The notes below the pieces were generated by a model, which was not told where the DNA came from, did not search any database, and worked only from the letters and a program-made list of their open reading frames with translations. A program made the translations under genes and the position numbers. A stretch of DNA of 33,506 nt from Erythrobacter sp. (lineage in GTDB: Bacteria > Pseudomonadota > Alphaproteobacteria > Sphingomonadales > Sphingomonadaceae): assembly GCA_030731635.1 (NCBI GenBank), contig JANQTR010000227.1:1-33506 (forward strand). The letters run 5' to 3'. Positions 18,567-27,028 of this stretch are shown piece after piece (within the stretch, counting starts at the first letter, position 1; each line of letters begins with the position of its first letter).

Positions 18567-19045
18567 TCCGCGTCCTCTGCCACAGCGGCTTGGTAGTGCG
18601 CGCGCGGCGAGGGCCATTCGACGATGTGATGTTCAATTGGTCCGGCGTCGACCTCGCTGACGACGCGGCCGACCACCGATACGCCAGCTTGGCGAACCGC
18701 ATCAGGGTCACCGCTTATCAGATAATGCCAGCCGGGCAGCGGGCGACCATCGGCGCGCAGACGATAGGCGCAGGTCGATGGCAGCCAACTGACCTGTTCC
18801 ACAATCCGCAGCGTCAGCCGCAGGCAATCGGGCACGAACGCCTTGCGGTTGCGATAATCGCTGCATTTGGCGGTATTGGTATCGAGCAGGCGGCAGGCAA
18901 TGTTGGTATCGAGGATTGCGCCTGTATCTTCATCCTCGATCTTGTGCAGACAGCATCGCCCGCAGCCGTCGCACAGCGCCTCCCACTCGGGGCGCGTCAG
19001 CTCGCCCAAAGGCAGCTGCCAGAACCGCTCTCTCAGCTCACCCAT
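18563..19045 (-). CDS. YcgN family cysteine cluster protein (UPF0260)
   Basis: WEALCDGCGRCCLHKIEDEDTGAILDTNIACRLLDTNTAKCSDYRNRKAFVPDCLRLT. Confidence 0.93.
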   Translation of the reverse strand: MGELRERFWQLPLGELTRPEWEALCDGCGRCCLHKIEDEDTGAILDTNIACRLLDTNTAKCSDYRNRKAFVPDCLRLTLRIVEQVSWLPSTCAYRLRADGRPLPGWHYLISGDPDAVRQAGVSVVGRVVSEVDAGPIEHHIVEWPSPRAHYQAAVAEDAE

Positions 19046-19650
19046 TTGCGAAGTTCCGCCGCTACTGCCTCGCCGCCCTGATCGACCGGCAGCGTTGCCA
19101 GCGGTTCGCCGTCAGGACCGAACAGATAGACGATATTCGAATGATCAACGAGGTATCCGCCGCCTTCGACGGCTGCACCCTTTTGATAGAACACCTTGAA
19201 CGCCTTGGCAGCGGCGGCGATTTGTTCGGGCGTGCCGGTCAGGCCGATGATGTCGGGTGAGAAGGCGGCGGCAAATTCGCCCACCACCTTTGCCGTATCG
19301 CGTTCGGGATCGATCGTGATGAAAATCGGCTGGGTCTTCGCCGCCAGATCAGGGTTGCTGGCCTTGAGCACTTTCAGCCCTTGCGCCACACGCTGCATGT
19401 CGGTGGGGCAGACATCGGGGCAGAAGGCATAGCCGAAATAGACGATCCGGTACTTGCCGGAAAAATCACTCCAGCGCACTGTGCGCCCATCGCTGGCCGT
19501 CAGCGCAAAATCGCCGCCGATTGATGCGCCAGCCAGTGGTGGTTCGGGCGCCGGCGACGATGCACCGCATCCCGTCAGTGCGAGCGCGACTGCCATCGTC
19601 GGTGCCACCAGAAGGGCAAAGGTTGCAGAAGGGGTGTTGATGCGGTTCAT
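19033..19650 (-). CDS. SCO1/SenC/PrrC family protein (copper chaperone-like)
   Basis: GGDFALTASDGRTVRWSDFSGKYRIVYFGYAFCPDVCPTDMQRVA...FITIDPERDT with CxxxC. Confidence 0.93.
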   Translation of the reverse strand: MNRINTPSATFALLVAPTMAVALALTGCGASSPAPEPPLAGASIGGDFALTASDGRTVRWSDFSGKYRIVYFGYAFCPDVCPTDMQRVAQGLKVLKASNPDLAAKTQPIFITIDPERDTAKVVGEFAAAFSPDIIGLTGTPEQIAAAAKAFKVFYQKGAAVEGGGYLVDHSNIVYLFGPDGEPLATLPVDQGGEAVAAELRKWVS

Positions 19651-21173: not shown

Positions 21174-21704
21174 ATGGCGGGTTCGCTCAATAAGGTCATG
21201 CTGATCGGCAATTTGGGGGCCGATCCCGAAATTCGCAGTTTCCAGAACGGCGGCAAGGTCGCCAACCTGCGGATCGCTACGTCGGAATCATGGAAAGATA
21301 AGGCGACCGGCGAACGCAAGGAAAAGACCGAGTGGCACACGGTCGCGATCTTTTCCGAAGGGCTGGTCAGCGTTGTCGAACGCTACCTGAAAAAGGGCAG
21401 CAAGGTTTTCGTCGAAGGCAAGCTGCAAACCCGCAAATGGCAGGACCAGAACGGGCAGGATCGTTACAGCACCGAAATCGTAATTCAGGGCCTTGGCGGC
21501 ACGCTGACCATGCTTGACGGCGCCCAAGGCGGCGGCGGTGGCGGCATGGGTGGTGGCGGTAGTGGCCGCTCGGGCGGCGGTTATGGCGGCGGCGCATCAG
21601 GCGGCAGCAGCGGCGGTTGGGATCAGGGCGGGGGCAGTTCGTCGGGCGGCAGCGGCGGCGGCAGCGGCGGCTACGATGATTTGGACGATGACATTCCGTT
21701 CTGA
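21174..21704 (+). CDS. ssb: Single-stranded DNA-binding protein with Gly/Ser-rich linker and acidic DDDIPF tail
   Basis: [59 protein letters not shown]...DDDIPF. Confidence 0.98.
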
Positions 21705-21738
21705 TCGGAGGCAGCTTTCCCGGGCAGCGGGATATCGG

Positions 21739-21755
21739 CGCTCTGCCTCAGAGCG
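21739..21755. other. Short perfect hairpin downstream of ssb
   Basis: CGCTCTG-CCT-CAGAGCG inverted repeat; no adjacent T-tract. Confidence 0.4.
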
Positions 21756-21794
21756 GACCCACCGTCAGCGGTTCCAATGCTCTCATCTTTTTTA

Positions 21795-22325
21795 TCAGCG
21801 TTCTACGACCTTGTCTGACATCGGAGCGAGCTTTGCCAGCAGGCGGTTCTGCGCGCCAAATGGCACCCCTTCCTCGCGCATGGCTGCCTGCAGGTTTTCG
21901 ACCAGCGCGTTGAGATCGGCTTTGGTGGCCCCCAACCCCGCGTGGGATGTGCGCATATCGCGCCCGCTATATTCGCAGCCCGCGCCGAGCAGGTAGCAGA
22001 ACTGTTCATCCAGTGTGCGCTTCAGCCGCACCATGTCATGTGCCGCAAAAATACCGGCGATGCGCGGGTCAGCCTCGCTCAGCTCAACTGTGCGGATCGC
22101 GATCCGGCGAATCCCCTCACGCCCGCCGAAGTCGGCGACCAGTTGCGCACTGGTGTAGGGCGCCGCCCCGGAATTGGCGTTGTCCTGCGTATAGGGATCA
22201 ACGGGAAACTCCCCCGTTTCAGGATCGCGCACCTTTTCCTCGACCCCGAACTCGGCGTCCCAGTCAATTCCTTCGGCAGGGGCCTGTTGTAGGAGCATAA
22301 GCACAGCGGCGGCGGACATCAGCAT
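21795..22325 (-). CDS. Group I truncated hemoglobin-like protein with N-terminal signal peptide
   Basis: GGREGIRRIAIRTVELSEADPRIAGIFAAHDMVRLKRTLDEQFCYLLGAGCEYSGRDMRTSHAGLGATKADLNALVENLQAAMREEGVPFGAQNRLLAKLAPM: TrHbI pattern with proximal His in SHAGLG; hydrophobic N-terminus. Confidence 0.82.
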   Translation of the reverse strand: MLMSAAAVLMLLQQAPAEGIDWDAEFGVEEKVRDPETGEFPVDPYTQDNANSGAAPYTSAQLVADFGGREGIRRIAIRTVELSEADPRIAGIFAAHDMVRLKRTLDEQFCYLLGAGCEYSGRDMRTSHAGLGATKADLNALVENLQAAMREEGVPFGAQNRLLAKLAPMSDKVVER

Positions 22326-22346
22326 GGGAACACTCCTGCCTAAGAA

Positions 22347-23381
22347 TCAGAACGCGATCTGCGCGGACAGAAAGCCGCCGCGCTGATCGGAGAAGGTGGC
22401 GATCGAGCCAAGGTCGGCATAGGCAGCGCCCAACGTGACATGATCCGTGACCGCATAGGCAGCGAATAGATCCATCCAATCGTCTTCGCCAAGGCCGAGA
22501 TTGTCGGGCTTGCTGCGATATTCCGCCCCGATCACCGCGCGGCGCGACAATTGGTAGCCAAGCGAACCTTCGAATTGCACCCGGTAGCCCGCGCCCGCAG
22601 CGCTGCCAAAGCCAAGCAGGCCGAGCTGGTTTGCTTCGGTATAGCGTAGCGTCGCATTGACTAGCAGGCTGCGCGCCAGCAGCAGCTTCGTTGCGCTGAG
22701 GGTATAATCGGTGCCGCTGTCATCCGCCGCGCCGAGCGCGCGAACGATTCCGCCGTCGCGGTTGCGCTTGTGTTCGATCCCTACGGCAATCTGCGGCAGC
22801 CATGCCTCGCCATAGACAAGATCGCCTGCCACCCGCAGCTTGGCCCCATAGGTTTCTTGATTGAAGGTATAGCCTTGCCCCAATCCCAGCAATGCACCGG
22901 CATCACGGGTGTCGAAATCAGCGCGGGCAAAGGATAGTTCGAGCCGGTCGCCAAAGCCTATCGCGGCGCCGTAGCTGCGCCAGCCGAAATCGGGTAGTTC
23001 AATCGCGGTCACATGGCCCGAAACGCCGATCCCGCCGGGCGTCTGGCGTCCGGCGATCGTCGCCCAGCTCGCTATGCCGCCGCCCGATCCGCCTTCGACG
23101 GTGCTTATCCCGTTGGTGAGCAGCAATTTGCCACCTTCGAACGCGCGCAGCTTGCCGATCCGAATGCCGCTATCACCCACCGCGCTCGTCTGCCCGAGTG
23201 GTTGCAGCGCGCGGATCGTCGGTGCAGCAGCGATCGGCGCAGGAGCGGTAGTCACCGCAGCCGCCTCCTCTTCCAGCACCTTTGCATAGGCAATCTGCGG
23301 AGCGGCGGGGGCTTCAAGGGGGGCAGCAGTTCCGGCTGCAGCTTGGCACAGCACCAACATAGAGGGAGCAAGTAACACCAT
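22347..23381 (-). CDS. DUF3034-like outer-membrane beta-barrel protein
   Basis: GGKLLLTNGISTVEGGSGGGIASWATIAG...YGAAIGFGDRLELSFARADFDTRDAGALLGLGQGYTFNQETYGAKLRVAGDLVYGEAWLPQIAVGIEHKRNRDGGIVRALGAADDSGTDYTLSATKLLL, ends in aromatic F. Confidence 0.78.
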   Translation of the reverse strand: MVLLAPSMLVLCQAAAGTAAPLEAPAAPQIAYAKVLEEEAAAVTTAPAPIAAAPTIRALQPLGQTSAVGDSGIRIGKLRAFEGGKLLLTNGISTVEGGSGGGIASWATIAGRQTPGGIGVSGHVTAIELPDFGWRSYGAAIGFGDRLELSFARADFDTRDAGALLGLGQGYTFNQETYGAKLRVAGDLVYGEAWLPQIAVGIEHKRNRDGGIVRALGAADDSGTDYTLSATKLLLARSLLVNATLRYTEANQLGLLGFGSAAGAGYRVQFEGSLGYQLSRRAVIGAEYRSKPDNLGLGEDDWMDLFAAYAVTDHVTLGAAYADLGSIATFSDQRGGFLSAQIAF

Positions 23382-23472
23382 GCGACACAGCGTTAACGCC
23401 GGAACGTAAATTGCTCCTAAACCAAGAGGCGAGGGTTTTTTAAGATGTGCCGGTTAAGCGCCTTATTCAGTC

Positions 23473-24111
23473 ATGACCTTTCGTTGGCCTTCTCGATTCA
23501 AGTCTTCCGCTGTCGCTGCATGCTTTGGCGTGCTTGCGGGCACAGCGTTTGCCGTACAGGCAGCAGGCGAACCGAGCGTGCGGGTGCAGGTGGTTGACGT
23601 CAACGGCCTGCCGGTGCGCGACGCCGTGGTGGAACTGCACAGCGCGCGCGGCACCGCTGGTCCAATTCGCTTTCCCTGGAAAATGGGCATGGCGCAAAAA
23701 AGCCTGCAATTTACCCCCGGCACACTGGTGGTGGCACAGGGCAGCACGGTAGCCTTTCCCAATCTCGATCAAGTACGCCATTCGATCTACAGCTTTTCCA
23801 AGCCTGCGAAGTTCGAGATTGAATTGTATGGTCGCGATCAGACCCGCACTCAGACCTTCCCGATTACCGGCAGCGTCAAGCTGGGCTGCAACATCCATGA
23901 CCAGATGCGGGGCTATATCCGGGTCACCGACACGCCGTTTGCTGGCAAGACCGATGGCAATGGTTATGTCACGCTTGAAGGGATGCCTGCGGGCAACGCC
24001 ACCCTGACAGTGTGGCATCCGCAATTGCGCGCGCCGGGCAACGAATCGAAATCGGCTTTCAATGTGACTGGCCCAGCGCAGGGTCACAAAATCAAGGTCG
24101 CGCTTCGATGA
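23473..24111 (+). CDS. Secreted cupredoxin, amicyanin-like (often annotated methylamine utilisation protein)
   Basis: [22 protein letters not shown]...[19 protein letters not shown]: His plus Cys-X2-His-X2-Met type 1 copper ligand set; signal peptide. Confidence 0.85.
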
Positions 24112-26447
24112 GTGCGGGTTTCGCTCAGGCAAAGCCGTTCATGCAAAGGCTGGCCCGGATTGCCCAGCTACGGTTCGGATCACTGCGGCTGCGTATTGCC
24201 GTGCTCTATGCCTCGCTGTTTGCTGTGGTTCTTGCGGTGGTCGTAACGCTGGCGGGCAGCGGATTGACCCGCTTTGCTGAGGCTAGCGCCGCAGGTGATC
24301 TGGCTGCCAATGCCCGGGTGTTCGATGAAATTCTCGCAGCGCGTGCCCGGCAAATGGGTGATCAGGCGGGCGTGTTGGCGCATGATTTCGGCTTTCGCGA
24401 GGCTGTGGCAACCGGCGATGCGCCAACTATTGCCAGCGCGCTCGATAGTCTTGAAGCGCGGGTGAGCAGCGATGCCGCCTTCGTGCTGACGCTTGATGGC
24501 GAGGTGCTGGCGGCGGGCGATACCGGCATCCCCGCGCCCGAAGCGCTGTGGAGCCAGCTTGACGCTGGCGAGACGCGCGGGATTATCGCATCGGGCAATG
24601 GTCTGGCGCTTGCCGCTGCCGCGCCGATCGAGGCACCAGACCTGATCGGCTGGCTGGTAATTGCTCAGCCGCTTGACCGTGCCGAGCTTGACCGGCTGGT
24701 AGAACTCGCCCCGATTGCGCTGGAAGCGCAGGTCATCGAAGCCACCCAACAACCCCAATGGCTGCGGTCGGCTGAGACTGGTGCGGTGTTCGAACGCGCT
24801 GAGGCGGAGCGGATGCTTTATCATGTGTCCGATCTTGCGGTGTTGCAGGAAGGCATTGCGCCCCGGCTGGTGCTGCGTCACTCCCTAGACCAGTCGCTCG
24901 CCGCCTATGCCAGTCTCAAATGGCTGCTCGCCGCCTTGGCCGTAGGCGGGATCGTGCTGGTGCTGGCGCTAAGCTTGCGGGTGGCGCGCAGCGTGACCGA
25001 ACCCTTGCAGCAACTCGACGAGGCCACTCGGCTGATTGGAGAAGGCCGCGAGATTGCGCTCAGTATCGATACTGATGACGAGATCGGACGGCTCGCTGGC
25101 AGTTTTACCCAGATGGTCACCGCGATCGCGGAGCGTGAACGCCAGATCATCCATGTCGGCCTGCATGACGGTTTGACCGGTCTGCCCAACCGCAAATTGT
25201 TTACCGAACAGCTCGCTAATGCCCTCACCCGCCGCCGCGACGGCGAACAGGTGATGATCGCCTATGTCGACCTTGATGACTTCAAGATGGTCAACGACAC
25301 GCTCGGCCATCCGGCGGGTGACGCTCTTTTGCGCATGGTGTCCGATCATCTGCGCGAAGACCATCCCGATGCGCTGATTGCGCGGCTGGGCGGTGATGAA
25401 TTTGCCATTCTGATCGATGGAATTACCGAGGCTGACAGTCTGGGCGGACTAGCTGACGGATTGCAGCGCTGCTTTGAACGCCCGATTACGGTCAACGGCC
25501 AGAATGCCGCCTGCGGGGCCAGCATTGGGATCGCGATGGCCCCCGGTGACGGCACGGACGGCGTTGCCCTGATGAAGAATGCTGATCTGGCGCTTTACCG
25601 TGCCAAGCATGAGGGCAAGGCGACTTACCACTTCTTCGAGCCCTCTCTTGATGAAGCCGCGCGGCATCGCCGCCAGCTTGAAATCGATCTGCGCAGCGCG
25701 ATCCGCGATGGTGAGTTTGAACTCAATTTCCAGCCGCTTTATAGCTTGGTCGAGCGCCGCCTGACCGGATTCGAGGCGTTGATCCGGTGGAACCACCCGA
25801 CCCGCGGGCGGATCAACCCGCTGGAATTTATCGCGTTGGCCGAAGAAACCGGGCTGATTATTCCGATTGGCGAATGGGTAATCCGCGAAGCCTGCCACCA
25901 TGCCAGCACCTGGCCCGATGATGTCTCGGTCGCGGTCAATGTGTCGCCCAAGCAGTTCATGGCCGCAGGCCTGCCCAGCACAATTCTTCAGGCGCTGGCA
26001 GCAAGCAGCTTGGCGCCGCAGCGGCTCGAGCTTGAGATCACCGAGAGCATTTTCATTAGCGATGTCGATGTAACGCTCGCGACCTTGCATAGCCTGCGCA
26101 ATATCGGCGTGCGCATTGCGCTCGATGATTTTGGAACGGGCTATTCGTCGTTGAGCTATCTGCGCTCGTTCCCGTTTGACAAGGTCAAGATCGATCGCAG
26201 CTTCGTCAAGGATCTGGGCACCAGCAATAATGGCCACGCGATCATCCGGGCAATCACCACGCTTGCCGATGCACTGGGAATGGAGACGCTGGCCGAAGGG
26301 GTGGAGGATATCGCCCAGTTCGAAGTGCTCGAACGCGAAGGCTGCCGCCACATCCAAGGTTTCCTGTTTTCGCGCCCGGTGGATGCCGGCGCCGTGGCGG
26401 GCTTGCTGCGCGACGGTGCGGGTTACCAGCGCCAGCTGCGCGCTTGA
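24108..26447 (+). CDS. Bifunctional diguanylate cyclase/phosphodiesterase with periplasmic sensor, HAMP, GGDEF and EAL
   Basis: Two TM segments flanking ~200-aa sensor, [61 protein letters not shown] overlap with cupredoxin gene. Confidence 0.95.
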
Positions 26448-26485
26448 ACGGCACTCCGCCTACGCATTGGCTGGACCGCGCGCGC

Positions 26486-27028
26486 TCACTCCTTCTTTAG
26501 CGCTGCCAGCATCGCCGCCAGCGGTCCGTCCTGTTCACCCTCGGCCACAATCCCCGCAGCTTGGCGCGCCGCAGCGGCATTCGGCCCTTCGGCATAGGGA
26601 TCGATAGCAAGGCCCAGCGTCTGTGCCACAGCTTCACCCAGATCGAACATTTCACCGGTGAAGGCGATTTCGTCGCAATCATCGGCTTCAAGCTCGATTT
26701 CGCGTTCTTCGTCTTCCGTCATCGGGCGGCCGCTGTCTTCGACGAAGCGCAGGTCGACCGGTTCATCGATGATGACAGGAAAATCCTCGGTCGAGATAGC
26801 GCAAGGTTGCAAGATGTCCGCCCGCAACCGCCCGGTTGCGCGGATCGCGCGGGGTTTCTGATCGAGCGCAATTTCGGCCCTGAGCGAATGTACCGCGCCC
26901 AGCCCGAACCGTGCTGCCAGCGCTGCACGCTCTTTGTCGGTCGCTTCGATCACCACCGCGCCAGCCGGCAAGGGCCGCGCCTTGATCATGCGGGTCAATT
27001 CAGACGGGGGCAGCGGTGTCTCGCTCAC
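26486..27028 (-). CDS. YceD/DUF177 domain protein
   Basis: LRADILQPCAISTEDFPVIIDEPVDLRFVED...IELEADDCDEIAFTGEMFDLGEAVAQTLGLAIDPYAEGP. Confidence 0.9.
   Translation of the reverse strand: MSETPLPPSELTRMIKARPLPAGAVVIEATDKERAALAARFGLGAVHSLRAEIALDQKPRAIRATGRLRADILQPCAISTEDFPVIIDEPVDLRFVEDSGRPMTEDEEREIELEADDCDEIAFTGEMFDLGEAVAQTLGLAIDPYAEGPNAAAARQAAGIVAEGEQDGPLAAMLAALKKE

Follow-up and report, generated by a model that had tools for sequence, protein, structure and literature searches.

Four adjacent genes in an Erythrobacter sp. contig raise the question of whether an exported globin, a DUF3034 protein, a copper protein, and a cyclic di-GMP (c-di-GMP) enzyme belong to one system. The window, that is, the whole stretch of DNA analyzed, comprises the 33,506 nucleotides of contig 227 (JANQTR010000227.1) of a 2.17-Mb assembly that is 73% complete; its relatives are Sphingomonadales of the Erythrobacter/Porphyrobacter type. 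The minus strand encodes an exported group 1 truncated hemoglobin (trHb1) of 176 amino acids (aa) (positions 21795 to 22325; PF01152 Bac_globin) and, after a gap of 21 bp, a 344-aa DUF3034 protein (22347 to 23381; PF11231). Beyond a 91-bp putative divergent promoter region (23382 to 23472), the plus strand encodes a 212-aa periplasmic type-1 copper protein (cupredoxin; 23473 to 24111), recognized by its ligands and predicted fold, and a 779-aa CHASE4-HAMP-GGDEF-EAL membrane protein (24108 to 26447; PF05228, PF00672, PF00990, and PF00563), whose ATG overlaps the cupredoxin stop codon (ATGA). A preliminary description of this DNA had given the same gene positions, spacings, and overlap, all of which match the open reading frames (ORFs) exactly. 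We find that the four genes, globin included, are a conserved unit found across Proteobacteria, and we favor, with moderate confidence, the reading that they encode a single envelope-spanning periplasmic heme/copper sensory complex that sets a c-di-GMP phosphodiesterase.

Conservation of the four genes

Flanking regions of DUF3034 genes were gathered from genomes of the order, from a phylum sample, and from 80 named genomes, and were screened with iterated profiles; after removal of duplicates, 135 distinct DUF3034 loci were left. The survey used a simple ORF caller, the choice of named genomes is skewed toward the query, and the genomes are not independent. DUF3034 occurs patchily: 24 of the 151 order genomes have it, as do 39 of the 399 in the phylum sample. 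The globin gene is its same-strand neighbor in 133 of 135 loci, and one of the two exceptions is a contig end. Cupredoxin and EAL genes were counted in the 119 loci whose flanks reach 3.5 kb or more on each side; of these, 98 have the cupredoxin, 87 have the EAL protein, and 86 have both. These 86 complete loci are divergent as in the window in 63 cases and co-directional in 23, and several loci outside the alphaproteobacterial set have the gene order cupredoxin, GGDEF-EAL, DUF3034, globin.

The association extends beyond local linkage. Within the phylum sample, the globin clade adjoins DUF3034 in all 39 DUF3034 genomes and occurs in only two other genomes, and the cupredoxin family is encoded in 38 of the 39, unlinked in five of them (Fisher P values of ∼1e-52 for DUF3034 with the globin and ∼1e-39 for DUF3034 with the cupredoxin, across 399 genomes that are not phylogenetically independent). 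Among genomes of the order that lack a local cupredoxin gene, eight have a copy elsewhere and the others have none. The locus counts, together with the genome-wide co-occurrence of globin, DUF3034, and cupredoxin, rule out a chance neighborhood. The preliminary description had named a lack of conserved co-occurrence of the four genes as grounds for refuting its idea; the neighborhood conservation analysis, globin included, showed the opposite (133 of 135 loci for the globin; 86 of 119 for cupredoxin and EAL protein). Apart from common domain families, no other recurrent neighbor of DUF3034 loci was found in the collected flanks.

In the window, the genes flanking the set are ssb and yceD, and the interval between them (21704 to 26486) is a variable spot in congeners: ssb and yceD are directly adjacent in three congeners, and unrelated genes lie between them in others, so the four genes are gained or lost as a unit. 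In locus L244, a different GGDEF-type gene occupies this interval. Elsewhere in the window, a SCO1/SenC copper chaperone gene (19033 to 19650) lies 2.1 kb from the module; it is not recurrent near other copies.

Some loci carry additional genes. DUF3034-globin pairs are found near ECF sigma factor and anti-sigma-like genes in L064, L068, L074, L167, L176, and L188 and near fasciclin-like genes in L062, L064, and L176. Second cupredoxin-EAL pairs a few kilobases from the DUF3034 module (L143:4859-7833 and L171:4754-7785) suggest duplicated or specialized receptors.

The globin, the cupredoxin, and the predicted barrel

The globin matches PF01152 above the cut-off (E value, 7e-7), and its profile best matches, among solved structures, HbN of Mycobacterium tuberculosis and group 1 truncated hemoglobins (E value, 1e-24). 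The proximal His F8 is kept in 133 of 133 globins (His128 in the window; codon 21942 to 21944), so the preliminary identification as a truncated globin holds, and a hemophore is ruled out by the trHb1 profile. HbN, the best solved-structure relative, has the same core and the same proximal His. In contrast to HbN, the module globin is exported, has two covarying Cys residues, is linked genetically to barrel and sensor genes, and lacks the Tyr-B10/Gln-E11 pair that marks HbN-type NO dioxygenases and O2-binding trHb1 proteins: Tyr-B10 and Gln-E11 each occur in 0 of 133 globins, the window residues are Val and Leu, and B10 is Val, Leu, Ile, or Met in 128 of 133. Because this pair is absent and the distal pocket appears to be non-polar, HbN-like O2/NO dioxygenase chemistry is unlikely; such a pocket is compatible with NO, CO, or plain redox sensing and leaves these open.

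Export of the globin had also been proposed. A hydrophobic N terminus is present in 122 of 122 scored globins, 25 of which have a lipobox, and the two Cys residues (Cys110, 21996 to 21998, and Cys117, 21975 to 21977, minus strand) are both present in 124 globins, both missing in 9, and never found singly (n = 133). This all-or-none pattern suggests a disulfide and thus an oxidizing compartment. Export is accordingly supported for the family as a whole, but the signal peptide of the window copy is atypical in that its n-region has no Lys or Arg.

The cupredoxin scores 18.7 bits against Pfam Copper-bind, under the cut-off of 21.2. Its predicted copper ligands, His103 (23779 to 23781), Cys139 (23887 to 23889), His142 (23896 to 23898), and Met145 (23905 to 23907), are nevertheless invariant in 41 of 41 relatives, its profile reaches solved cupredoxin domains, and amicyanin is the nearest fold of its AF2 model (pLDDT of 92.9). 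On these three grounds the predicted assignment as a type-1 copper, amicyanin-like cupredoxin is secure, as first proposed, and the ligands of both heme and type-1 copper are invariant across their families. The C-x2-H-x2-M spacing is identical to that of amicyanin; the differences are that the copper domain is set, in the model, between extra beta-sandwich strands and that the gene is associated with those of a c-di-GMP enzyme and a globin rather than with methylamine dehydrogenase. Amicyanin proper was rejected (the TIGR02657 score is 13.2 bits, the cut-off being 110.2, and the recurrent neighbors include no mau dehydrogenase genes), as was methylamine utilization as the function, since no mau genes recur in the neighborhoods; the public label of the family is "methylamine utilization protein."

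Related cupredoxins also occur in other company. In L223 and L234, the genes after the cupredoxin encode a di-haem CCP/MauG protein, which is short in L234, and a PAS hybrid histidine kinase (L223:5681-6694 and L234:7401-7739). This set parallels the module in combining heme, copper, and sensor proteins but has neither globin nor DUF3034. In L220 to L222, L227, and L229 to L232, the cupredoxin, mostly with GGDEF-EAL, is followed by an unnamed signal-peptided protein of 403 to 417 aa with at most weak Porin_4 similarity, which apparently substitutes for the DUF3034-globin pair.

The DUF3034 protein matches its family profile strongly (PF11231; E value, 6e-88). Its AF2 model (pLDDT of 78.4) has 12 strands, with porins, FapF, OmpG, and NanC as the nearest folds, and the C-terminal residue is aromatic. 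We therefore predict a 12-strand outer membrane beta-barrel ending in Phe. The most conserved stretch, residues ∼83 to 111 (GKLLLT...EG..GGG...WA.I.G), precedes strand 1 in a low-confidence part of the model and is possibly a plug or docking segment. A search for sequence relatives in the Protein Data Bank returned just one, spurious, repeat-protein match, and an NCBIfam scan left globin, barrel, and cupredoxin without an informative name.

The sensor protein and its outputs

Transmembrane (TM) stretches at residues ∼28 to 48 and ∼269 to 291 of the membrane protein flank a periplasmic domain of ∼220 aa, in agreement with the preliminary description. This CHASE4/dCache-like domain (residues ∼49 to 268; 24252 to 24911, plus strand) has a conserved motif, D-F-G-F-R-x-A-V-A-x-x-D-x-x-T; no sequence match of the domain to a solved structure was found. 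HAMP, GGDEF, and EAL domains are also matched, giving the TM-CHASE4-TM-HAMP-GGDEF/EAL arrangement of a one-component c-di-GMP receptor, with CHASE4 barely over its cut-off (27.5 against 26.2 bits). The GGDEF domain (25164 to 25619, plus strand) has an intact motif in the window and no I-site (HPDA); among relatives, about half keep the motif and about half show it decayed, and most have lost the I-site. The EAL domain (25686 to 26378, plus strand) has all of its catalytic residues, and the catalytic and metal residues E, R, N, E, DD, K, and E are invariant in 109 of 109 partners. Because these residues are invariant while GGDEF decays, the constant output is probably an EAL phosphodiesterase that breaks down c-di-GMP. 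The output proposed earlier, a GGDEF-EAL protein, thus stands for its EAL half but not as a balanced pair.

The enzyme is also not the only partner. Although an EAL protein accompanies 87 of the 119 well-flanked loci, the output is exchangeable or absent in some lineages: in L055 and L183, for instance, a HAMP-PAS histidine kinase replaces it. In one Sphingomonadales genus, an ethylene-receptor-like (ETR1_N) membrane gene is divergent from the DUF3034-globin pair (L057:7750-9045, L061:7341-9239, and L069:7336-9216); the two of the three proteins that were scanned, those of L057 and L061, were typed as histidine kinases.

Distances between loci were compared as partial correlations. The cupredoxin correlates with the sensor (0.53) far more strongly than with the EAL domain in that polypeptide (0.12); the globin behaves likewise (0.36 and 0.09), and the barrel shows a like pattern. 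The three proteins thus co-vary with the periplasmic sensor half much more than with the EAL domain. The kinase swaps, the alternative cupredoxin partners, and this sensor-half co-variation lead us to propose a periplasmic sensory machine with exchangeable outputs.

The divergent region was compared across 69 alphaproteobacterial loci. Relative to ORF-upstream controls, TTAA is enriched 7.2-fold, GGTTAA 15-fold, AATT 1.9-fold, and TATA 1.5-fold; the controls are crude and more GC-rich than the divergent regions, so the enrichment is a lead only. TTAA-rich half sites resemble CtrA sites and, as a lead, would fit motility control. FNR/DNR-type control was rejected, as no TTGA-N6-TCAA box occurs in the 69 regions.

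A proposed sensory complex, its rivals, and its kin

In the sensory complex that we favor, the outer membrane barrel would let the stimulus in or position it there. The globin, whose distal pocket is non-polar and which in many species carries a lipid anchor, would bind or react with NO, CO, or another redox-active molecule, or might simply track the periplasmic redox state. The cupredoxin would relay the state of the globin, as electrons or as a change at the copper site, to the periplasmic CHASE4 domain, and HAMP would then alter EAL phosphodiesterase activity and, through it, motility and attachment. The contacts, the ligand, and the electron flow are the conjectural parts of this scheme. 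The periplasmic part would be the invariant machine, and the cytoplasmic output would be swapped for a histidine kinase or lost. A stronger proposal, that barrel, exported truncated hemoglobin, and type-1 copper protein are a redox relay to CHASE4 with plug-in outputs (EAL or histidine kinase) and so a new class of signal input, is put forward tentatively, with somewhat less than an even chance of being right.

Several observations weigh against a sensory complex. About 20 loci are DUF3034-globin pairs without a local cupredoxin or EAL gene, and the CHASE4 match is weak. Distance correlation cannot tell contact from shared inheritance, and the low EAL correlation may stem from domain exchange or saturation. 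Furthermore, the Lysobacter-type proteins L180:8932-9858, L185:8080-9207, and L186:8666-9754 are TM-sensor-TM(-HAMP) proteins without GGDEF, EAL, or kinase, and therefore c-di-GMP control is not the whole function everywhere. The genes for these output-less sensors sit between cupredoxin and DUF3034.

These Lysobacter-type loci retain globin, barrel, and cupredoxin, as would be expected if the set were instead an enzyme-like periplasmic electron transfer or detoxification chain whose redox load the CHASE4 protein only monitors. The globin heme would be the site at which NO, peroxide, or some other small molecule is reduced or oxidized; the cupredoxin would serve as its electron partner, and the barrel would be the channel of entry. 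Pairing of a heme protein with a cupredoxin is a classic arrangement in periplasmic redox chemistry, members of the same cupredoxin family occur with a di-haem CCP/MauG gene, and a periplasmic truncated hemoglobin of cable bacteria has been proposed as an O2 reductase (PMC12093952). We nonetheless regard such a chain as unlikely, if well short of negligible: the residue pair for HbN-type O2 activation is missing in every globin, the 69 divergent regions have no FNR-type box, and most loci combine the set with a membrane signal protein.

Less probable again is a device for acquiring or monitoring heme or copper, in which the metal cargo would be carried by the barrel together with the globin or cupredoxin and sensed directly by CHASE4. 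In its favor are the porin-like barrel and the binding of heme or copper, or the response to ferric iron, by Pseudomonas aeruginosa CHASE4 proteins (PMC13277305), but the globin has an ordinary trHb1 core with an invariant proximal His and not a hemophore fold, the 12-strand barrel has no TonB-dependent receptor features, and no uptake genes recur among the neighbors. That the cluster is merely co-inherited, its parts acting separately, is very improbable: the DUF3034-globin and cupredoxin-EAL pairs are separable, but they co-occur even when unlinked (38 of 39 genomes) and in divergent and co-directional layouts alike, and their rates co-vary specifically with the sensor half.

The nearest characterized kin of the sensory complex are the P. 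aeruginosa CHASE4 receptors. PA2072/IsmP, PA0847, PA14_37690, and PA14_53310 likewise are membrane GGDEF(-EAL) proteins with a CHASE4 domain in the periplasm; heme is bound in vitro by the CHASE4 domain of PA14_53310 and copper by the one of PA14_37690, and PA2072/IsmP responds to ferric iron (PMC13277305). These receptors are not described with a cupredoxin, a globin, or a DUF3034 barrel, whereas the module here has these partners, a decaying GGDEF domain, and a constant EAL domain.

Other systems share single traits with it. Globin-coupled or heme-PAS sensors of the DosC/DosP type control c-di-GMP turnover through a cytoplasmic heme in the same polypeptide; here, the heme protein is a separate exported globin. 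In the NspS-MbaA system of Vibrio cholerae, a periplasmic solute-binding protein with polyamine acts on a GGDEF-EAL receptor. We propose a similar logic, in which a separate periplasmic protein, co-encoded with a membrane c-di-GMP enzyme, reports the signal, but with two metalloproteins and an outer membrane barrel in place of the solute-binding protein and polyamine of that documented pair (PMC5646818).

Public annotation names the parts as an EAL protein, a carboxypeptidase-regulatory-like protein, DUF3034, and a group 1 truncated hemoglobin, with no joint function. A description of a module joining them was not found in the open-access literature (subscription papers lay outside the search). 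DUF3034 is named in just two papers there, and one of them, a retron paper, has it once, in a DUF3037 legend and probably by a slip; a Sideroxydans paper treats globins and GGDEF separately.

Most GGDEF/EAL proteins have no known input. In this module, one such protein is genetically wired to a conserved group of metalloproteins, and the stimulus can therefore be narrowed to periplasmic heme/copper redox chemistry. The module also offers a testable role for DUF3034, for an exported trHb1 clade without the HbN distal pocket, and for a family mislabeled as methylamine utilization proteins. If the redox relay is true, the module would sense redox conditions in the periplasm by means of electron carriers of the respiratory type.

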